From contig WFOE01000245.1 of assembly GCA_015488215.1 (NCBI GenBank), forward strand, positions 1-38,319: a stretch of 38,319 nucleotides of DNA. The letters are read 5' to 3'. Of the stretch, positions 14,378-24,341 are shown piece by piece. The notes below the pieces were generated by a model. That model worked only from the letters and a program-made list of their open reading frames with translations, was not told where the DNA came from and did no database searches. Numbering within the stretch: the stretch's first letter is position 1; the number at the start of each line of letters is the position of its first letter. A program made the position numbers and the translations under genes. The DNA is from Planctomycetales bacterium. GTDB lineage: Bacteria; Planctomycetota; Planctomycetia; Pirellulales; S012-138.

Positions 14378-14665
14378 TTACGGTTCCACCGGTGTGGCTC
14401 CCGGCGGGGGCGTGCCGCGTCCGCTGCGGACGTATTCGGCCCGGCCCCGGCGGTGTTCTTCCCAACTGGGCTCTTCCAGCGCGCGGCCTTCCATTTCGGC
14501 CTGGTAGAGCCGCCGGAGCAGCTCGCGGCACCAGCCGCAACCGGTCCCGGCGCCGAAACACTCGCTCAACTGACTGGCTCGGCGCGGGCGATGCAGCCGG
14601 ATGAAGTTGATTACCTTCCGCTTGGTTACGTGAAAGCACAAGCAGAGTTCGTCATCCAGTTCCAC
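14378..14665 (-). CDS. BFD-like [2Fe-2S] protein
   Basis: A 95-residue protein whose first half matches the BFD-like [2Fe-2S]-binding fold. It has LCLCFHVTKRKVINFI at the start, with C8 and C10, and then C43-x2-C46 (GTGCGWCRELL) after a 32-residue gap, which is the family C-x-C...C-x2-C spacing. An extra Cys at 36 lies in between. The C-terminal half (about 55-95) is charged and proline-rich and looks unstructured. It lies 51 bases downstream of the TorD-like gene on the same strand and is probably cotranscribed. The cluster is inferred from cysteine spacing; the partner (bacterioferritin, oxidoreductase or molybdoenzyme) is unknown. Confidence 0.85.
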   Translation of the reverse strand: MELDDELCLCFHVTKRKVINFIRLHRPRRASQLSECFGAGTGCGWCRELLRRLYQAEMEGRALEEPSWEEHRRGRAEYVRSGRGTPPPGATPVEP

Positions 14666-14716: not shown

Positions 14717-15337
14717 TCAATCCACCGCGGGGGCAAGTTGCCGGGCAAGTTGTTCGGTAAACTGTTGGCTCATCGTGGCCAGATGGCGGTAAAACGGCTC
14801 GCTGGCCTGTTGGGCCACCCAGCGGTAGCAAGCCGTGGCCCAGAGCAGGTGACGTTGCAGGAAGCGGGCGCTCATTTCGGCCAGCTCCTGGGTCGCTTGC
14901 GAATCGGGCTGCGCTTGAGCCAGCTCGCAAAGCGAAAACAAATAGCCTTGGGTTAACCACTGCAAGCCCAGGTGGTCCGGCGGCACGTGGATGCCCAGGG
15001 GCTCCGGTTCCCAGCCCAAAAGTTGCCACCACTGCTGCATGGCCGGGGCACTCGGCCCTTGGAACTGTTCCTGTTGCCAGACCGATTGCACCGGGGGGCG
15101 ATGTCCCCGAGGACCGACAAACAACCGGCAATACTGTTCGGCCAAGGGAGCAATCCAGCCCTCCAACTCCTGGGGAGATTCCACCTGGGGGAGCCAGCCG
15201 CCGGCTTCCACGTAGTGGCTGCGCAGCGGCTCCTGGACAAGCTGTTGCAAGGCCGGAGCGTCCAGTTCCCGAAGCCACAGCCGGCCCAACAGACGGCACA
15301 CGCCGGCCCAGGCTTCCCACGGTGGGTTTACTTGCAT
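14717..15337 (-). CDS. TorD/DmsD-family molybdoenzyme chaperone
   Basis: 206 residues from an ATG at 15337; a TTG eight codons earlier is also in frame. The all-alpha TorD-like signature is visible: LAEQYCRLFVGPRGHRPPVQSVW (about residues 74-96, quoted here only as the key YxRLFVGP...PPxxSVW pattern), WQLLGWEP.PLGI..PPDHLGLQ and a C-terminal helical region (FLQRHLLWATACYRWV). Members of the family hold molybdoenzyme apoproteins and their Tat signal peptides in the cytoplasm during cofactor insertion. No molybdoenzyme is in this window; its only operon partner seen is the BFD-like protein downstream. Its client is therefore outside the window. Confidence 0.87.
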   Translation of the reverse strand: MQVNPPWEAWAGVCRLLGRLWLRELDAPALQQLVQEPLRSHYVEAGGWLPQVESPQELEGWIAPLAEQYCRLFVGPRGHRPPVQSVWQQEQFQGPSAPAMQQWWQLLGWEPEPLGIHVPPDHLGLQWLTQGYLFSLCELAQAQPDSQATQELAEMSARFLQRHLLWATACYRWVAQQASEPFYRHLATMSQQFTEQLARQLAPAVD

Positions 15338-15477
15338 GGTTTTCGCACACTCTTCGGGCAAGGTGTCCGGTCCCCTGATTGCAGTGTAGAGCAGCGCAAG
15401 CCGACTGTCAGCCCGACCACCGGGGCGGCTGCAAGCTATACTTGGTTACCGCAGGGGCCTATCTGAAAGGGAAAACG

Positions 15478-15983: not shown

Positions 15984-16445
15984 TTATTGTGCCGGGGCAG
16001 TTTTCTTCAGCGCGGCGCGGTAGCGGCCTTCGAGCCACTGGTGGTACTTTTGCGGCTCGGCGGCGATTTTGCGCAGGCAGCCCGGGCAGCAGACGTAGAA
16101 CATCTCGCCCCGGACCGGTGCTCCCTTGGCGTTGGGCGGCAGCGGCTTTTTCATCACGGGGCAGATGCCCTGGGCGGCGCGAAAGTTGGCGTGAATCTGC
16201 TGCCACGCCCGCGGGTTAATCCGCCCGCGCAGACAACCGCGGCAGCAGACGTACACGGTTTCTTTGCCCACGCTCACTTTGATGGGCGTGCCATGTTCGC
16301 CCAGTGGCTTGCCCGACACCGGGCAGATGCGTTGCACGGCAATCCGCACCTGGTCGTGCTGGGTCAACTGGGGCTGCTGGGCCACGGCGGTCGCGGCCAA
16401 AGCGGTACCGAGCAGAGCAGCGGCAATCCATGCTCGAAACATCAT
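15984..16445 (-). CDS. secreted protein with two CPV...CC-x-GC metal-site modules (TRASH/YHS-like)
   Basis: A 153-residue exported protein starting at an ATG preceded by AAAGGAG; a second ATG follows directly. The signal peptide covers about 1-21 (ending TAVAQQ). The mature part has two homologous modules: ICPVSGKPLGEHGTP...VYVCCRGCLRG and ICPVMKKPLPPNAKG...FYVCCPGCLRKI. Each has CPV at its start and CC-x-GCL about 30 residues later, a pattern like TRASH/YHS metal-binding domains. It lies on the same strand as, and downstream of, two Cys-rich exported proteins and the CusA/CusB-like pump. A metallochaperone or metal-scavenging role in the periplasm is inferred from context. Direct repeats GTCGTATCCA lie just upstream of the ribosome site (16472-16505). 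Confidence 0.8.
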   Translation of the reverse strand: MMFRAWIAAALLGTALAATAVAQQPQLTQHDQVRIAVQRICPVSGKPLGEHGTPIKVSVGKETVYVCCRGCLRGRINPRAWQQIHANFRAAQGICPVMKKPLPPNAKGAPVRGEMFYVCCPGCLRKIAAEPQKYHQWLEGRYRAALKKTAPAQ

Positions 16446-16471
16446 CGTTTGCTTCTCCTTTATCCAGACGG

Positions 16472-16505
16472 GTCGTATCCAGTCGTATCCAATTGAGTCG
16501 TATGG
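16472..16505. repeat. iteron-like direct repeats upstream of the CPV/CC-x-GC gene
   Basis: GTCGTATCCA occurs twice in tandem (16472-16481, 16482-16491), with a third partial copy GTCGTATGG at 16497-16505. They sit about 27 bases upstream of the start at 16445, where a regulator could bind. No other copies were noticed; the rest of 16506-16730 shows nothing else. Confidence 0.45.
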
Positions 16506-16730
16506 GGCTTGCAAAAACCGGCATCGTGCAGGGAAAACTCTTTCCGGCGGCAGGAATCTCCAGATGGGGCACATCTTGCCCGGCGAGTCTCAAGCCCTTG
16601 GGGACTTCATGCCCGATGCGACGTGTTCAAAGCCGGAGGCTTGAGGGACCGCCGCTTCCACACCGCGCAGTCTTTTCCGGCGCACAGCGTCCCGTAGGGG
16701 GAGTGCGCCTTTTCAAGAGAGGGCCACCCA

Positions 16731-17210
16731 CTAGCAGAGATAGCGGCACAAGACTACGTGAAGCCCTGCCGGATGTGCCGGGCAAGGGGCAGAAGTTCCA
16801 GCCGGAACCGAGCGAGACTCCGGCCTGGGGGGCACGAGCCCTGTTTCGGCAAGCTGCTCAGGGCCGACTTGTTGCATCTGGCCGGAATGGGCTTCGGCCA
16901 GCGTGGCCGGAGCGGGAGCTTTCAGCACGCCGCAGGTGCAGCCGGACGTGCCGCGGCACGGACAGGAGGGGACACTTTCCTGCTCAGAGCAAGTGGTGCC
17001 GCAACAAGTCCCGACCTGGCGCGATGCCACCATCTTGCTGCAACAATGGCCCGGCTGGTCCAGTTCCTGGCTGCAGCAGTCGGTGCAGCAGGGCAACCCC
17101 AGCACGGGCATCGCCAGCCAAAGCACAGCCAGCCATACGCCCAACAGACGCCCAACGATGTGGGTGGCAGCTCGCACGGCAGGGGTCGTCCTGAACACGG
17201 GCAGCAACAT
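16731..17210 (-). CDS. Cys-rich secreted protein (paralogue 1)
   Basis: A 159-residue protein starting at an ATG preceded by GAGGGAG about 8 bases upstream; a GTG at 17216 is too close to that site. A basic start and a hydrophobic stretch (about 19-39) look like a signal peptide or anchor. The mature part has 16 cysteines, mostly paired: CCTDCC, HCCSK, TCCGTTC, CPCRGTSGCTC. It ends in LCRYLC, a C-x3-C at the extreme C terminus. It follows the cusA-like gene on the same strand. The cysteine pattern and C-terminal motif match the products of 23288-23686 and 36468-36818. Metal binding is inferred; no family name is recognised. Confidence 0.75.
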   Translation of the reverse strand: MLLPVFRTTPAVRAATHIVGRLLGVWLAVLWLAMPVLGLPCCTDCCSQELDQPGHCCSKMVASRQVGTCCGTTCSEQESVPSCPCRGTSGCTCGVLKAPAPATLAEAHSGQMQQVGPEQLAETGLVPPRPESRSVPAGTSAPCPAHPAGLHVVLCRYLC

Positions 17211-17233
17211 GGACACCGCTCCCTCAGTGTAGT

Positions 17234-17246
17234 CGGTATTTTACCG
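17234..17246. promoter_or_regulatory. palindromic operator-like site upstream of Cys-rich paralogue 1
   Basis: CGGTA-TTT-TACCG is a perfect palindrome with a 3-base centre. On the minus strand it overlaps a TAAAAT that could be the -10 box, and a TTGACC lies 22 bases further upstream. The spacing is too long for a standard promoter, so a regulator that realigns the promoter is possible. Nothing here proves this. Confidence 0.35.
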
Positions 17247-17399
17247 ATTTTCCTTCACCGCTACAGGTCAATCCGCAGGGTTTTGGCAAGTCGTCCTTGT
17301 GTTTTTCACGGCGGGGGACTCGTCCTGAAACCGTTTGCTGTGGCATAACGGCACTTGCGGGCTTGGGACAAACATTCTTCCTCCAGGCAATCGGCCGGT

Positions 17400-20300
17400 T
17401 TACGTCCCCGGGGCGCCGGCTAGGGGTGCCGCAACAGGCTCGGCGGCCGGTTCGTTCACCCGGCGGCGGCTCACCTGGAGCAGGAACTCCTCGATCCAGC
17501 AATACGAAACCGGGGCGATAAACAGCGTAACCAGCTCCACCACCATGCCGCCGAACACAGGCAAGGCCATCGCCCGGGCCACGTCGGCCCCGCGGCCGGT
17601 GGAAACCAGCACCGGTACCAGGGCAATGAGCGTGGTGAAGGTGGTCATCAAACAGGGGCGGATACGCTTCGAGCCGGCCTCGATCGTCGTCTCGCGGATT
17701 TCTTGCAGCGTGCGGGGCTTTCGCCGGGCAAACAGTTGCGAAAGATAGGTGGCCATCACCACCCCGTCGTCCACGGCGATGCCGAACAAGGCGATAAAGC
17801 CCACCCACACGGCGGTGTTCATCTCCACCTGGCCCAGGGCCAGGGCTATCATTCCGCCGGAGAAGGCGATGGGAATCCCGGAAAAGACGATTAGCGAAGT
17901 GCTCAACCGCCGGAACTGCATGTAAATCAACAGCAAGTTAATCAGCAGCACCGCCGGCAGAATGATGAACACCAGCCGCCGGTTGGTTTCCACCTGGTTC
18001 TGGAAGCTGCCGACCAGCTCGGGCACGAATCCCTGGGGCAGTTTCAGCTTGCCTTCGGCGATGGCCCGTTCAATCGAAGACTTGACCGCCATGGCCGTCT
18101 CCAGGTCGCCGCGGCCTTCGCGGGGGGAGAAGGAGACGTGGGCCACGAGCCGGGCATTCTCGCTCTGGATGGCCCCCGGCCCCCAGATGCTTTGAATCTT
18201 GGTCAGCCGCTCCAGCGGCACCACATCGCCGGTGGGGGTCACGACAGGGAGCTTACCCAGCTCTTCCGGCGACTGGCGGAATGCCTTGAGGAACCGCACC
18301 TGGATCGGATACCGCTCGCGTCCTTCCACGGTGGTGGTAACGTTCATACCGCCCAGGCCCGCTTCGACCAACTCGTTGACCATTGAGACGGTCATCTGGT
18401 ACCGGGCGGCTTCTTCACGGTCCACTTCGAACTCGATGTAGGGCTTGCCCACCACGATGTCCGGCTTGACCACCGAGCCGTCCACGTAGGGGTGGTTTTG
18501 CAGGAATTCGGAAACGGCCTCGGCGGCCCGGGTCAGCCCTTGCAGGTCGTCCCCGTAGATGCGCACGGCCATCGAAGCCCGAATGCCGCTTTGCAGCATG
18601 ACCACGCGTCCTTCGATCGGCTGCAACGGCGACGCCTTGGTAATGCCCGGCAGCGTGGCCACACGGTTGATTTCATTCCAGATGTCCTGGGCCGTTACAC
18701 CGGGACGCCACTGGTCCCGGGGCTTGAGCATCACGTAGGTTTCAATCATGGCCGCGGGAGCGGGGTCCAGGGCCGACTCCACCCGACCGATCTTGCCCAG
18801 CACGTTTTCCACCTCGGGAATCTGCTTGATGAGCGTGTCCTGAAGCTGCAACACGCGCATCGCCTCGCTGAAGCTGGCCGCCGGGTAGAGCATCGGCATG
18901 TAGAACCAGCTTCCCTCGTCCAGCGCAATCCAGTCGTCGGTCTTCAGCCCGTCGTGCAAGTGCTTGAACTCCACGTAGCCGGGCAGCTCGTTCAGGTCGG
19001 CTCCTACGCTGCTGGCCAGTTGTTCCAGGGGCTTGAGCATCACCGGGAATCCCCACCAGGCGGCCCCGCCCAGGAACAGAATCAACAGCAGCAGCAACAC
19101 GAACAGTCCCTTGTGGTGCAGCAGCCAGCGGAGCGTGGGCTGATAGACGAACAAGATTGCGCGGCTCACCGGGTTTTGTTCCAGCGGCTTGACCCGTTCG
19201 CCCACGATCCAGTAGCCGGCAAACGCTCCCAGGGCGGCTCCGCCGACCCAGGCAGCCACCACGGCCCAGGTGCCGTAGGCGGCCAGCATCGGCTGCCAGA
19301 CCAGGCCCACCAGAGCCAGGGCCAGGGCCAGCCCCACGGCGCCGCCGGCCCATTTGAGCCAAGGCCGGTCGCCCAGTCGGGCGAAAAAGATGCGGCTCAA
19401 AAGGGGTACCAGCGTCACGGCCACGATCAGGCTGGCCACCAGCGAGAACGTCTTGGTCCAGGCCAGGGGGCTGAACAGCCGGTGGTCGCGGCCGGAGAGG
19501 AAAAAGATGGGCAGAAAGCTGATCACCGTGGTGCTCACCCCGGTGATGACGGCCGGAATCACCTCGACGGCCGCCTCGTAGATGACCCGAAGCCGCTCTT
19601 CGCGGTCGCGGCCGCCCCGGGCCTCCCATTCGGCCAGGTGGCGGTAGATGTTTTCCGAGACGATAATCCCCATATCGACCATCGTGCCGATGGCGATGGC
19701 AATCCCGGCCAGCGACATAATGTTGGCGTCCACGTTGAACCACTTCATGCCGATAAAGGCCATCAGCACGGCCACCGGCAACGTGGAGGCGACCACGATG
19801 CTGGCCCGAATGTGCAGCAGGAACAGCACTACCACCAGGATGGTGATGATGATTTCCTCCTTCAGCGCCGTGGTAAGCGTGGCCACCGTCTCGTCGATCA
19901 GCCAGGTGCGGTCATAGACCGGCACAATCTTTACCCCGCCCAGGTTCGGTTCCAGTTGCTTGATTTTTTCGCGCACCTTCTGGATTACGTGACGGGGATT
20001 CTCGCCCAGCCGCATCACCACCACGCCGCCGACGGCTTCGGAACCGTTCAGGTCAATCGCCCCGCGGCGGAACTCCGGCCCCAGTTGCACCTGACCCAAG
20101 TCCTTAATCCGCACCGGCACGCCGTCGCGGGTGGCCACCACGGTTTGCTCGATTTCGCGCAGGGTTTCCGGCAGCGTCTTGCCCGAGCCGATGAACCCTC
20201 GCCCCCGCAGGATGTGCTCCATGCCGCCCACTTCGACCGTTTTGGCCCCGACGTCGATGTTGCTTTGCCGCACGGCCTGGATCACCTGCCGCAGCGTGAC

Positions 20301-20897
20301 GTTGAAGAACCGGAGCTTGTCCGGATCCAGCTCGATCTGGTACTGCCGCACGTAGCCGCCCACGGAGGCCACCTCGGCCACTTCGTTAATCGACTCCAGG
20401 GCGTACTTGATCACGAAGTCCTGCAAGCTGCGCAGCTCGGCCAGGTCCATGTCCGGCGGCCCCTGGAGCACGTAGTAGAAAATCTGCCCCAGGGCCGTGG
20501 CGTCCGGTCCCAGCTCCGGGGTCACTCCCTGGGGGAGCTTGCCGGCCACGGTGTTGAGCTGTTCGGCCACGCGGCTGCGGGCCCAGTACAGGTCCACGTT
20601 GTCGTCGAAGGTGACCTGCACGAAGGAGAAGCCGAACATGCTCTTGCCACGGACGCTGCGCGCCCCGGGCACCGACTGCAAGGCGACCGAGAGCGGGTAG
20701 GTAATCTGGTCTTCTACGTCCTTGGGCGAGCGGCCGTTCCAGGTGGTCAGAACGATTACCTGGTTGTCGCTCACGTTGGGGATGGCGTCCATCGGCACGC
20801 TGTTGGTGCAGTACCAGCCGTAGATGACCACCACGGCCGTGGCCAGCAGCACCAGCAGGCGTTCGCGGATACAGAACTGGGCGATTTTGGAAAACAT
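17400..20897 (-). CDS. CusA/CzcA-family heavy-metal RND efflux pump
   Basis: 1165 residues, an inner-membrane proton-driven antiporter of the HME-RND family, with the expected two-fold six-helix layout and large periplasmic loops. The start ATG encodes MFSKIAQFCIRERLLVLL. The proton-relay helix reads AIGTMVDMGIIVSENIYRH, with D408 and E415. M667 (YMPM), M717 (AAMIET) and M767 (VVMLQSG) align with the copper-site methionine triad of E. coli CusA (573, 623, 672): spacings are 50 and 50 against 50 and 49. This favours Cu(I)/Ag(I) over Zn/Co. An extra hydrophobic segment of about 90 residues (510-600) sits after TM6. It is 58 bases downstream of the CusB-like gene. No outer-membrane factor is in the window. 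Confidence 0.95.
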   Translation of the reverse strand: MFSKIAQFCIRERLLVLLATAVVVIYGWYCTNSVPMDAIPNVSDNQVIVLTTWNGRSPKDVEDQITYPLSVALQSVPGARSVRGKSMFGFSFVQVTFDDNVDLYWARSRVAEQLNTVAGKLPQGVTPELGPDATALGQIFYYVLQGPPDMDLAELRSLQDFVIKYALESINEVAEVASVGGYVRQYQIELDPDKLRFFNVTLRQVIQAVRQSNIDVGAKTVEVGGMEHILRGRGFIGSGKTLPETLREIEQTVVATRDGVPVRIKDLGQVQLGPEFRRGAIDLNGSEAVGGVVVMRLGENPRHVIQKVREKIKQLEPNLGGVKIVPVYDRTWLIDETVATLTTALKEEIIITILVVVLFLLHIRASIVVASTLPVAVLMAFIGMKWFNVDANIMSLAGIAIAIGTMVDMGIIVSENIYRHLAEWEARGGRDREERLRVIYEAAVEVIPAVITGVSTTVISFLPIFFLSGRDHRLFSPLAWTKTFSLVASLIVAVTLVPLLSRIFFARLGDRPWLKWAGGAVGLALALALVGLVWQPMLAAYGTWAVVAAWVGGAALGAFAGYWIVGERVKPLEQNPVSRAILFVYQPTLRWLLHHKGLFVLLLLLILFLGGAAWWGFPVMLKPLEQLASSVGADLNELPGYVEFKHLHDGLKTDDWIALDEGSWFYMPMLYPAASFSEAMRVLQLQDTLIKQIPEVENVLGKIGRVESALDPAPAAMIETYVMLKPRDQWRPGVTAQDIWNEINRVATLPGITKASPLQPIEGRVVMLQSGIRASMAVRIYGDDLQGLTRAAEAVSEFLQNHPYVDGSVVKPDIVVGKPYIEFEVDREEAARYQMTVSMVNELVEAGLGGMNVTTTVEGRERYPIQVRFLKAFRQSPEELGKLPVVTPTGDVVPLERLTKIQSIWGPGAIQSENARLVAHVSFSPREGRGDLETAMAVKSSIERAIAEGKLKLPQGFVPELVGSFQNQVETNRRLVFIILPAVLLINLLLIYMQFRRLSTSLIVFSGIPIAFSGGMIALALGQVEMNTAVWVGFIALFGIAVDDGVVMATYLSQLFARRKPRTLQEIRETTIEAGSKRIRPCLMTTFTTLIALVPVLVSTGRGADVARAMALPVFGGMVVELVTLFIAPVSYCWIEEFLLQVSRRRVNEPAAEPVAAPLAGAPGT

Positions 20898-20955
20898 GGC
20901 TCAGGTTCCATGTTGTGCGAGTCGAGTGTCGGTTTTGCCCGGCGGGGCCGGACTT

Positions 20956-23103
20956 CTAGTGCACGTGGGCGGCAGCCACGGATTTGGTTTTCTTCTTCCT
21001 GGACGGGGCGTCGTTGCTGGCGGTTTTGCTTTTTTTCTTGCCCTTGACCCACCGCTGCGGCACGGCGTTGGTAATCTCGTGCACCTTTTCGGCGCAGCGG
21101 CGCATCTTGTGGCCCCAGTAGGGATTGGCCGGTTCGTCGTCGGCCTGGAGCCAGTCGCCGTATCCGCCGGGAACCATCGAGCAGAAGAAATGCACCAGCC
21201 GCATCGGCTTGCCCTGCACCCGCACGCGCACGGCCAGGCGGAGCATGGCCCGACTGAGCTTTTTGAACGTGACGCGCGCTTCGGCCAGGGTCTGCTCGCT
21301 CATCCGCTCGGCGGCGGTTTCCAGTTCAATGAGGAACGGATGCACCGCAAGCGGCACTTCTTTCAGTTCCCGAAGCTCCCGGGCCGAGTGGGCCAGGCGG
21401 CGCAGCGTGTTCACTTCCACCGGCTTGTCGTCGGCCAGAAGCTGCTGGGTGCGCAAGTAGCTCTGAAGCACCTGCTGGTAAAGCTCGGCGGCCCGGCCCG
21501 AAAGCTCGGTTACCGAAGCCACTTCCAGCGGCAAGGGACGGTTCTTGGGCGGTTCGGCCCGGCTCGGGTCGATTACCGACGGCTTGAGCTGCAACTGCAT
21601 CTGCGAATCGATCAGGAAATTGCCGCTTCGGGCCACGTGTTCGCCCGGGACGATTCCTTCCCAGACGACAATCTCTTCTTCGTTGACCAGCGGGCCGAGC
21701 GTCACCCGGCGGATTTCAAACCGGCCCGGGTCGGTTTCCACATAGACGACCGAATGACCGCCCACGGCCAGTACCGCGTCGCGCGGGATGACCACCACCT
21801 TGGGCAGCGGCACCGGGCGATCGGCATAGCCCAGTTCGCGCGTGGGCACCAAGGGCACTCCGCACACCGGGCACGGACCGGCCGTATCGCGGATGATTTC
21901 CGGATGCACCGGGGAAATCCACTTGCCGGCCAGTTCCGGATCGTAAAGCTGCGGTGACTCGTATCCAGGCGGAAAGACCGGCACCTGGATCGTGGCCACG
22001 GCGTAGTCGCCGATCTTGAGCAGCCCTTCCGGGTTGGGGAACACGACGCGCACGTCCACCGTGCGGGTCTTTTCGTTGACCACCGGGTCGATGAAGGCCA
22101 CGCGGCCTTCGAACGTGCGGCCCGGAATCGACTGCACCGTGGCTTGCACCTTCTGCCCGTAGCGCACCAGCGCGGCTTCTTCCGGGTACAGTTGCACCTT
22201 GAGCCACACGGTGGACAGATCGGCCACTTCGTAAAGCACCTGGCCGGTCTTCACATACTGTCCCTCCAGCTTCGGTTTGCGGATCACCGTGCCGGCAATG
22301 GGCGAGTAGAGCTTGATGTGCGTTTCGGCCTTGCCCCGTTGCAGGATGCGGTCCACCTGTTGCGGGGTGAGGGCGAAGCGGACAAGCAGCTTTTCCCGGG
22401 CCCCTTCGTACAGTCCGCGCTGGGTCTGCACCAGGTTGGGGAAGTTGGACTTTTGGGCCTGCTTCAGCGCTTCCCAGGCTCGCAGCAGCTCCACCTGGGC
22501 CGAATAGAGTTCCGGGGAGTAGATTTCGGCCAGCACGTAGCCCTTGGGGACGAACATGCCCGTGTAGTCGGCGTTGAGTTTTTCGATCCGGCCGTCCACG
22601 TGCGAGGAGATGATGGCCTGCTTCCCCTCGTCGAAGTCGATGAAGCCCACGCCGCGGATGGTGCGGGTTACAGCCTCGTAGCGAGCTACCGCGGTCTGGA
22701 TACCGGCGATGCGTTTGGCCAGCGGGTCAATCACCACGGCCAGCGGGTCTTTGTCCCCCAGCCCCTGCTGGGTGGGTTCCAGTTTCATGCCGCACACCGG
22801 GCAGCGTCCCGGCTTGGGCCGGGGCGGGGTACACAACATGGGGCAGACGTACATGGTGGTTTGCCCCACGGCGGATTGTTCCTCCCCTGCGGTGTCCTCT
22901 TCGCTCTTGAGATAGCCGTGCTTTTGCAGCAGCCCGATGCCGGCCATCACCGCCACCAGGGCGACAACCAGCGCCACCGGGAACACCACCAGGCGAAACA
23001 CCGGGGCGATCAAACGCACGAGCAGGAATCGACTGGAGCTGCCCCCACTCTCCGGAACCGAGGGCGCCGGCGACGAGGCGGAGTGTTCTGGCTTGGAGTT
23101 CAT
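20956..23103 (-). CDS. CusB-like periplasmic adaptor with two heavy-metal-binding modules and a DUF3347-like tail
   Basis: 715 residues, started at the ATG at 23103; an extension to 23211 is unsupported. An anchor helix lies at about 27-58. The first heavy-metal-binding module (84-111) reads MYVCPML...CPVCGMKLEP, with Leu in place of the usual CPMHP histidine. The barrel-sandwich, lipoyl and beta-barrel domains follow (IISSHVDGRIEKL, SPIAGTVIRKP, VDVRVVFPNPEG). A second module, WISPVHPEII...CPVCGVPLVP, is inserted at about 394-426 and lacks the first Cys. The C-terminal part (about 530-690) has HFFCSM (638-643) and NPYWGHKMRRC as in DUF3347-type copper-binding domains. It would link the CusA-like pump to an outer-membrane channel. 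The tail is Lys-rich, ending AHVH. Confidence 0.93.
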   Translation of the reverse strand: MNSKPEHSASSPAPSVPESGGSSSRFLLVRLIAPVFRLVVFPVALVVALVAVMAGIGLLQKHGYLKSEEDTAGEEQSAVGQTTMYVCPMLCTPPRPKPGRCPVCGMKLEPTQQGLGDKDPLAVVIDPLAKRIAGIQTAVARYEAVTRTIRGVGFIDFDEGKQAIISSHVDGRIEKLNADYTGMFVPKGYVLAEIYSPELYSAQVELLRAWEALKQAQKSNFPNLVQTQRGLYEGAREKLLVRFALTPQQVDRILQRGKAETHIKLYSPIAGTVIRKPKLEGQYVKTGQVLYEVADLSTVWLKVQLYPEEAALVRYGQKVQATVQSIPGRTFEGRVAFIDPVVNEKTRTVDVRVVFPNPEGLLKIGDYAVATIQVPVFPPGYESPQLYDPELAGKWISPVHPEIIRDTAGPCPVCGVPLVPTRELGYADRPVPLPKVVVIPRDAVLAVGGHSVVYVETDPGRFEIRRVTLGPLVNEEEIVVWEGIVPGEHVARSGNFLIDSQMQLQLKPSVIDPSRAEPPKNRPLPLEVASVTELSGRAAELYQQVLQSYLRTQQLLADDKPVEVNTLRRLAHSARELRELKEVPLAVHPFLIELETAAERMSEQTLAEARVTFKKLSRAMLRLAVRVRVQGKPMRLVHFFCSMVPGGYGDWLQADDEPANPYWGHKMRRCAEKVHEITNAVPQRWVKGKKKSKTASNDAPSRKKKTKSVAAAHVH

Positions 23104-23287
23104 GGCGGATCCGTTTCGTTTCAGAACGGGGAATAGGAATCGGTTTCGTCGGCAAACCGCGGCAATCGGTCGGTTCGTGGCAAGCTCGCGGGAAGCCGAG
23201 TTTATTGCCAATGGCGCACGCCGAAGCAGAATCGTGACGGCATTGCCAGCATGGCCCGGAGGAGAGAGCCCGGGCGGTGCGCCTGGA

Positions 23288-23686
23288 TCAACAGCGCCAG
23301 ATGCAAAGCTGAATCAGAAGCAGAGTGCCGCTTTCGCCGGCCGCTTCGCTCTGCGGTTCCTGGGCTCCGCGGCGGCCGGAAAGTTCCGCATCGGCAACGA
23401 GCGGAACCAGAAGCGCCACGGCCGGTTCGGAGTCCGCGTGGCGAGTCTCTTGCTGAGGCCGAGGCACCGGGGCCGGCTGTTGCGGCTGCGTGCAACCGCA
23501 TGAGCGACGCGTTTGTCCCTGGTTCCCCTTGCAACAGCAGCCGGAATCGGCCGTGTTGCAGCAGCATGCCCGCTTGGCCGTTTGATGGCAAGCGGGGCTG
23601 CCCACGGCGCAAAGCCCCACCGGCGGCCGCACCGTGCCTAGCACGGCCAGCAGCAGGGTCAACGCTTTGAGCAGCCGGGACAGCAT
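23288..23686 (-). CDS. Cys-rich secreted protein (paralogue 2)
   Basis: A 132-residue protein starting at the ATG at 23686. A signal-peptide-like start (MLSRLLKALTLLLAVLG) is followed by 12 cysteines, most in clusters: CAVGSPAC, ACCC, GCCCKG, SCGC. The C terminus is LIQLCIWRC, a C-x3-C at the very end, as in the other two Cys-rich proteins. It is the first gene of the metal island: the CusB-like gene starts about 185 bases downstream. A sigma70-like promoter lies directly upstream (23724-23752), which supports it as a real gene. A periplasmic copper buffer or chaperone is a reasonable inference but untested. Confidence 0.72.
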   Translation of the reverse strand: MLSRLLKALTLLLAVLGTVRPPVGLCAVGSPACHQTAKRACCCNTADSGCCCKGNQGQTRRSCGCTQPQQPAPVPRPQQETRHADSEPAVALLVPLVADAELSGRRGAQEPQSEAAGESGTLLLIQLCIWRC

Positions 23687-24098: not shown

Positions 24099-24341
24099 CT
24101 AAGTGGCGGCCCGACGGGGAATCGTGATCGAATAGAGAATGGTGATTGCCCCCAGCGAGAGCAGGCTCCAAGGGGCCCAGTCCGGGGGGATAAACTCCTT
24201 GGGGCGCGTTTTGGCCTTTGCCCAGGGCAGGCTGGATTTTTCCACCACCCGCTGCCGCAGCAGTGCCTTGTCCATCACCAGGCACTGGGCACCCAGCAGC
24301 AGGGTGAACAGCCCCACGGCCCAAAAAAACGCTCGCCACAT
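24099..24341 (-). CDS. small two-helix membrane protein
   Basis: An 80-residue protein starting at an ATG with AGGAGG about 11 bases upstream. It has two hydrophobic segments: about 4-22 (FFWAVGLFTLLLGAQCLV) and about 58-72 (LLSLGAITILYSIT). A basic stretch lies between them (KAKTRPKEFIPPDWAPWS). The sequence resembles short conserved membrane proteins of planctomycetes, but I cannot name the family. It is divergent from the coiled-coil gene at 24575. The REP-like copy C lies just downstream. Its function is unknown. Confidence 0.7.
   Translation of the reverse strand: MWRAFFWAVGLFTLLLGAQCLVMDKALLRQRVVEKSSLPWAKAKTRPKEFIPPDWAPWSLLSLGAITILYSITIPRRAAT

Follow-up and report, generated by a model that had tools for sequence, protein, structure and literature searches.

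Putative cysteine-rich leader genes in a planctomycete Cus-type efflux operon: candidates for co-translational metal sensing

What are two small, cysteine-dense proteins doing in the operon of a Cus-like metal pump? The question is raised by positions 15984 to 23686, minus strand, of contig WFOE01000245.1 (Planctomycetales bacterium, assembly GCA_015488215.1), the whole 38,319 nucleotides of which are called the window here. An earlier note on this DNA took the two proteins, Cys1 and Cys2, for metal buffers or carriers feeding the pump's adaptor. The answer that we consider probable is a Cus-type Cu(I)/Ag(I) efflux operon in which the two Cys-rich genes are leaders that act in cis and sense exported metal co-translationally. 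Metal-sensing leaders with proline-based C-terminal motifs were described from Bordetella in 2022 (PMC9426467) and from Rhodobacter in 2023 (PMC9973294). The family considered here, absent from Pfam and NCBIfam and encoded at the head of metal-efflux and metal-trafficking operons in Planctomycetota, lacks the proline motif.

Spacing and C-terminal motif of the Cys-rich family

Cys1 (23288-23686, minus strand; 132 aa) is encoded by the first gene of the operon, and Cys2 (16731-17210, minus strand; 159 aa from an ATG start) by an additional putative leader inside it, just before a gene for a protein with two TRASH-like domains. The proteins had been described as exported and Cys-dense. The density is plain enough (12 Cys in Cys1, 16 in Cys2), and both have hydrophobic N-termini from which export itself is predicted. 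No Pfam or NCBIfam family matched Cys1, Cys2 or the proteins grouped with them, and to judge from sequence the two belong to an unrecognised planctomycete family that shares a single architecture with the Cys-rich proteins of relatives. The set on which the following counts are based has 46 members with less than 75% mutual identity (much of it was collected via nearby TRASH or cusB genes, and its start codons are predicted).

A hydrophobic segment precedes a Cys cluster in all 46 members. The cluster itself is highly variable in length, with 8–23 Cys whose number and spacing are poorly conserved. What is constant is the distance from it to the end of the protein. From the last CxC or CC of the cluster to the C-terminus there are 67.8 ± 2.6 residues, with 45 of the 46 members falling within 62–73, independent of the cut used; Cys1, counted from C65, has 67 and Cys2 has 66. 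When mature regions are shuffled the standard deviation of this spacing is 26 (minimum 18.3), as against the 2.6 observed, and Cys density steps from 0.07 to 1.43 per 5 residues at an edge 65 residues from the C-terminus. The linker is Pro-rich at its start and otherwise nearly random in sequence, with a pairwise identity of 10.9% compared with 9.1% for shuffled linkers. Since its length is fixed and its sequence almost free, it is length, not sequence, that appears to be under selection. In the AlphaFold model of Cys1 (mean pLDDT 56) the signal helix and a helix near the C-terminus, residues 118–131, are the only elements formed, and there is no folded mature domain.

The second constant feature is a motif set against the stop codon. 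The form [LF]C[RC][WFYL]xx-stop, often extended to RCxxLCR[FW]xL-stop, occupies exactly positions −6 to −3 in 42 of the 46 members and occurs once elsewhere. Cys1 ends LIQLCIWRC, its LCIWRC (23291-23308, minus strand) abutting a TGA stop, and Cys2 ends HVVLCRYLC, with LCRYLC (16734-16751, minus strand) abutting TAG. Two kinds of ending recur. Type A, RCxxLCRFTL-stop, is usually on the first gene of an operon or before a TRASH gene. Type B, xxLC[RC]W[LR][TVI]-stop, is on genes directly preceding cusB, and Cys1 is of this type. Gimesia-like genomes have a type A gene followed by a type B gene in tandem, each with its own stop-proximal motif. The identity of the stop codon itself shows no selection: arrest specific to one stop codon was considered and rejected, as the 27 TGA, 10 TAA and 9 TAG match the background.

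These features bear on the role given to the proteins by the earlier note. In its fullest form, Cys1 and Cys2 would be exported buffers or metallochaperones, thiol analogues of CusF or SilE, passing periplasmic Cu(I)/Ag(I) to the heavy-metal-binding domains (HMBDs) of CusB, with the LCRW end serving for docking or as a further metal site. They do look exported, have 8–23 Cys and are always encoded beside genes for HMBD-bearing CusB, TRASH or HMA proteins, and because a 32-Cys exported protein follows the leader in one relative, thiol buffers must occur in such settings. However, a buffer has no need for a spacer that is invariably 67 residues long and free in sequence, for a motif pinned to the stop, or for the nucleotide element beyond the stop that is described below. 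Weak conservation of Cys number and spacing within the cluster, and the retention of the stop-proximal motif by both copies of each type A/type B tandem, tell against it too. With the linker, the motif and the post-stop element as they are, a role mainly as buffers or carriers is unsupported, and we think it unlikely. A dual role, in which a cis-acting nascent-chain sensor releases a mature product that also buffers periplasmic metal, would account for clusters larger than those of the known leaders CutF and CruR, together with a ruler and stop motif that point to a leader. It is doubtful, given that the predicted disorder suggests rapid degradation, as reported for CutF (PMC9973294).

The region 3′ of the stop codon and a proposed mechanism

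In many members a sequence TGCGC[GA]C begins 21–24 nts past the stop codon. TGCGC is present at +17 to +24 in 25 of 46 leaders; of 500 other open reading frame ends taken from these loci, 1 has it (Fisher p ~1e-29, though p-values here are inflated because the members are related and many were gathered through neighbouring genes). At the post-stop position it is about 40 times as frequent as elsewhere in these intergenic regions. It is alike after type A and type B leaders despite their differing distances to the next gene.

There is a non-translational way to see both constant ends: the C-terminus could be a sorting or anchoring signal, and TGCGC could mark where a transcription factor binds the DNA or where RNA is processed. 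As a short GC palindrome the element suits such a role, and arrest at LCRW is a proposal by analogy. Yet the element is placed relative to the stop in both types, though the spacing to the next gene differs, and it is far rarer in the remainder of the very same intergenic regions. We know of no sorting signal resembling an LCRW tail. This alternative seems very improbable.

What the element may do is hinted at by its own context. Its TGCG is presumably a match to the core of the consensus transcription-pause sequence, and a G stands at −10 in 15 of 25 cases (p ~5e-4). Together these are suggestive of a transcription-pause site. RNA structure was sought in the same regions. Mean folding z is −1.1 over 46 post-leader regions, and an Rfam search of the window had zero matches. 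A conserved stem-loop after the leader, or sequestration of the Shine Dalgarno sequence, was rejected, as RNAalifold found none in 15 type A and 13 type B regions. Attenuation by intrinsic terminators was also rejected, terminator-like hairpins being present in just 3 of 46.

The mechanism that we propose is as follows. A predicted signal peptide would target the leader to SecYEG. By the time that translation arrives at the final codons, LC[R/C][W/F]xx-stop, the last Cys of the cluster would trail by some 67 residues. As that many residues should span the ribosome tunnel and the translocon, the cluster would then have just come out into the periplasm (in the CutF paper the ribosomal tunnel is allotted about 30 residues and the membrane about 17; PMC9973294). 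Binding of metal to the cluster, as against no binding or disulfide formation, would change the force with which the growing chain is pulled, and this force would set the dwell time of the ribosome at the C-terminal motif and stop codon. Ribosome occupancy there would in turn set expression of the gene downstream, through its transcription or its translation: cusB in the case of Cys1 and the double-TRASH gene in that of Cys2. The site of this control would be the intergenic region that follows (184–285 nts in the window; that between cys1 and cusB is 23104-23287, minus strand, 184 nts), where many relatives have TGCGC. The direction expected is metal-induced efflux.

Several points weigh against this mechanism, besides the inflated p-values. 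None of the 46 members has PP or RAPP, the class of motif to which metal sensing by leaders has been linked until now. Only about half of the members have the post-stop element, and in the window it is off: cys2 is followed by a divergent GGCGCAC at +22 to +28 (16703-16709, minus strand), and cys1 has GGCGCAC at +5 only, in place of the +21 usual in the family. No covariation-supported structure was found downstream of the leaders by RNAalifold in the 28 regions just mentioned, and terminator-like hairpins are scarce. The 8–23 Cys exceed the need of a minimal sensor and would suit a buffer too. Finally, arrest, regulation and metal binding of the leaders are deduced, as are metal sensing, response direction, metal identity, export and coupling to TGCGC. 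Nevertheless, the fixed linker, the stop-pinned motif, the post-stop element and the position at the head of transcription units fit a cis-acting nascent-chain sensor better than a buffer.

The more specific version of the proposal is an arrest peptide of a non-proline kind, with metal read outside SecYEG while the ribosome is at the stop and the signal relayed to RNA polymerase paused at TGCGC; we advance it tentatively, as one that may well prove wrong. The same caution, amounting to less than an even expectation, attaches to its corollary that a single sensor, often present as a tandem pair, joins translocation, translation termination and transcription. If the leaders of this family work as proposed, metal sensing outside the cytoplasm would have a second chemistry of arrest, and nascent chains traversing the ribosome and SecYEG a clean natural ruler. 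Many Cys-rich proteins, likely annotated as metal binders, might then be regulators.

The operon and its recurrence

In the order of transcription the operon is Cys1 > CusB > CusA > Cys2 > double-TRASH, five consecutive minus-strand genes as the earlier note had it. CusB (20956-23103, minus strand; 715 aa) is a periplasmic adaptor with an HlyD_D23 match (PF16576, E=4e-64) and two HMBD stretches (PF19335). CusA (17400-20897, minus strand; 1165 aa), a resistance-nodulation-division (RND) pump, scores 864 bits on the CusA/CzcA model TIGR00914, for which the cut-off is 701. The copper-site Met triad claimed for it is borne out by alignment to solved CusA, M667/M717/M767 corresponding to M573/M623/M672 of the E. 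coli protein, and the triad is unchanged in 41 of 41 aligned pumps. The metal is, on the strength of that triad, probably Cu or Ag, and the idea of a metal export island is supported in the form of a planctomycete export operon. The proton relay differs. Of the CusA residues which we take to make up that relay, D405 is retained, E939 is replaced by Asp and K984 by Cys (window residues 1044 and 1082), and both replacements are found throughout the 41 aligned pumps save for two truncated sequences missing one or both sites. The window pump and its close planctomycete relatives thus look like a CusA sub-clade with altered relay chemistry.

The fifth product, noted before for its CPV and CC-x-GC motifs (15984-16445, minus strand; 153 aa, the start being revised to 16445 from 16574), is an exported protein with a pair of TRASH-like CPV...CCxGC domains, PF08394 matching two stretches at 29.1 bits (cut-off 27). 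AlphaFold predicts its two-domain fold with confidence (mean pLDDT 88), and the model had no significant fold match in the PDB. It is probably a metal carrier or storage protein. For metal handling, this protein and the HMBDs of CusB are better candidates than Cys1 and Cys2.

The window was also said to provide no outer-membrane factor, and a search of the contig with PF02321 (OEP) agrees. OEP genes are present elsewhere in the source genome (contigs C40, C64, C253, C235 and C237), and relatives have one right after the TRASH gene, so the absence is a local loss or relocation.

The operon has as neighbours a TorD/nitrate-reductase-delta-type chaperone gene (14717-15361, minus strand) and one for a BFD-like [2Fe-2S] protein (14378-14665, minus strand). 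About 410 nts upstream of Cys1 there is a gene for an 80-aa small membrane protein (24099-24341, minus strand) with no Pfam match. The source genome has at least five more pump genes of the heavy-metal-efflux RND type (contigs C194, C262, C174, C224 and C231), and the pump and adaptor on C262 have no leader upstream.

Is the arrangement peculiar to this contig? A search of 98 relatives found full-length double-TRASH homologues, with 40–56% identity, in about 12 genomes, and around them one recurrent operon: Cys-rich gene > cusB > cusA (61–67% identity) > double-TRASH. In five loci that were checked, a gene for an OEP-type outer-membrane factor comes next (PF02321, E 1e-37 to 1e-49). The gene order is repeated at 40–67% identity across many planctomycete genomes and is not due to chance. 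The earlier note had suggested asking whether Cys-rich genes recur next to cusBA in planctomycetes, and from this recurrence it is clear that they do. In a scan of named genomes 34 loci came up, nearly all from planctomycete metagenome-assembled genomes (Pirellulales, Planctomycetaceae, Gimesia).

Association with cusB follows the closeness of the adaptor. Where CusB has at least 42% identity and upstream sequence is available, a leader is within 1.3 kb in almost every case. There are two exceptions: at L041/L076, a single locus that turned up twice, the leader is at the head of a TRASH gene lying farther upstream, and at L079 the tail of the leader is divergent. Paralogues of CusB with 39–40% identity, one of them in the window's own genome, have zero leaders upstream, and two CusB loci of 32–33% identity carry divergent family members. 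Independent of gene context, a nucleotide-pattern scan for the type A end in 398 genomes, class-wide, gave 14 matches and its reversed control 0; of the loci found, the seven that were opened all precede cusB and the remainder had already been mapped.

Among profile matches from outside the cus operons, leader genes directly precede genes for TRASH proteins, HMA chaperones or Cys-rich metal proteins. A third leader in the window's genome, ending ALLCRWQC-stop, abuts a gene for a His-rich lipoprotein-like TRASH protein (L054, contig C84, 225-1256). At L143 (6151-11800) a leader ending DRCAKLCRFLI-stop is followed by genes for a double-HMA exported protein and for a MacB-like ABC exporter with its membrane-fusion protein, possibly a metal exporter. 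The 32-Cys exported protein referred to above (L142, 7457-7939; ~160 residues, metallothionein-like repeats) is encoded directly behind a leader and has no Pfam match. At L136, from another class, a leader ending LVSRWTT-stop precedes the gene for an HMA-like lipoprotein with MSCPKC. A leader-like reading frame at L050 (5926-6375) has LLCCWLK and then about 50 more residues, as if its stop codon had been lost or the leader had decayed. Adjoining TRASH genes in several genomes is a HAMP plus SpoIIE phosphatase gene (L132, 766-2316; L133, 11252-12793; L046, 5495-6994).

Comparison with known efflux systems and metal-sensing leaders

The operon shares with CusCFBA and SilCFBA a CusA with the Met triad, a CusB adaptor and, in the OEP-bearing relatives, a tripartite design. 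It differs in having no CusF (PF11604 matched none of the five proteins) with a double-TRASH protein instead, in the two HMBDs of its CusB, in the change of the relay Lys to Cys, and in the missing outer-membrane factor of the window; the earlier view that the arrangement is unlike CusCFBA is upheld. The double-TRASH protein has the CPV...CCxGC motif of TRASH/Arc_trans_TRASH (PF08394) in two copies, above the Pfam cut-off, and is distinguished by export, by its two domains and by its lack of a significant PDB fold match. The C-terminal part of Cys1 has weak similarity (E 0.005–0.09) to LpqS, a copper-induced mycobacterial lipoprotein (NF052429), which was rejected as chance, with 17 bits against a curated cut-off of 35 and one of 24 members matching.

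CruR (DUF2946; Bordetella pertussis bp2923, PMC9426467) is closer in design. It too heads Cu operons, has a Cys motif and is followed by a long intergenic region (162 nts, compared with 184–285 nts in the window), and its export signal has a putative counterpart in the hydrophobic segment of the planctomycete proteins. Its spacing of 45 between CXXC and RAPP is held to 1–2 residues in more than 2000 proteins, and an addition of 5 residues kills the copper response (PMC9426467); arrest was later demonstrated in vitro (PMC12992588). Spacing is likewise kept to a few residues in the planctomycete family, at a different value. CruR operons encode a TonB importer, whereas the planctomycete operon has an efflux pump. 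PF11162 (DUF2946) matched neither Cys1 nor Cys2 at E<=1 nor any of 24 members at E<=0.1, and none of RAPP, RGPP, RAGP or RAPG is present in the last 40 residues of the 46 members.

CutF of Rhodobacter capsulatus acts in cis only, requires its signal sequence, Cys motif and C-terminus, and is undetectable in cells (PMC9973294). It was initially put forward as a Cu-binding component (PMC8456105) with its leader role being shown later, a history that counts against the buffer interpretation of Cys1 and Cys2. The planctomycete leaders resemble it in having a Cys metal motif, preceded by a hydrophobic segment that is a candidate signal peptide, and a conserved C-terminal motif, and in being encoded directly upstream of metal-homeostasis genes on the same strand (CutF-like genes likewise precede CusA, CusB and CusC genes). 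As with CutF, the metal gene downstream is on the same strand with fewer than 1000 intergenic nts. They differ in their spacer of ~67 rather than 45 residues, in having a large Cys cluster rather than CxxxC, and in having LC[RC][WF]xx at the very end and no PP in the last 15 residues. The published census of CutF-like proteins demanded PP in the last 15 residues and a length below 150 aa (PMC9973294), and it would have excluded this family, of which many members exceed 150 aa; the paper does not name Planctomycetota.

Elsewhere in the phylum, a leader with a true RAPP motif, ending GPPRAPPRPLYLSFQSFLI before its stop, precedes genes for an outer-membrane factor, CusB and CusA in another class (L139, 6643-8544); its last Cys is 70 residues from the end and it has no Pfam match. 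There, as far as its sequence tells, a known kind of metal leader occupies the position of the new leader family. Membership of the family described here in DUF2946 or among CutF-like proteins was considered and rejected, there being no PF11162, PP or RAPP and a different spacing. By its sequence the family lies outside DUF2946 and the published CutF-like group, yet its anatomy matches that of the nascent-chain copper sensors.

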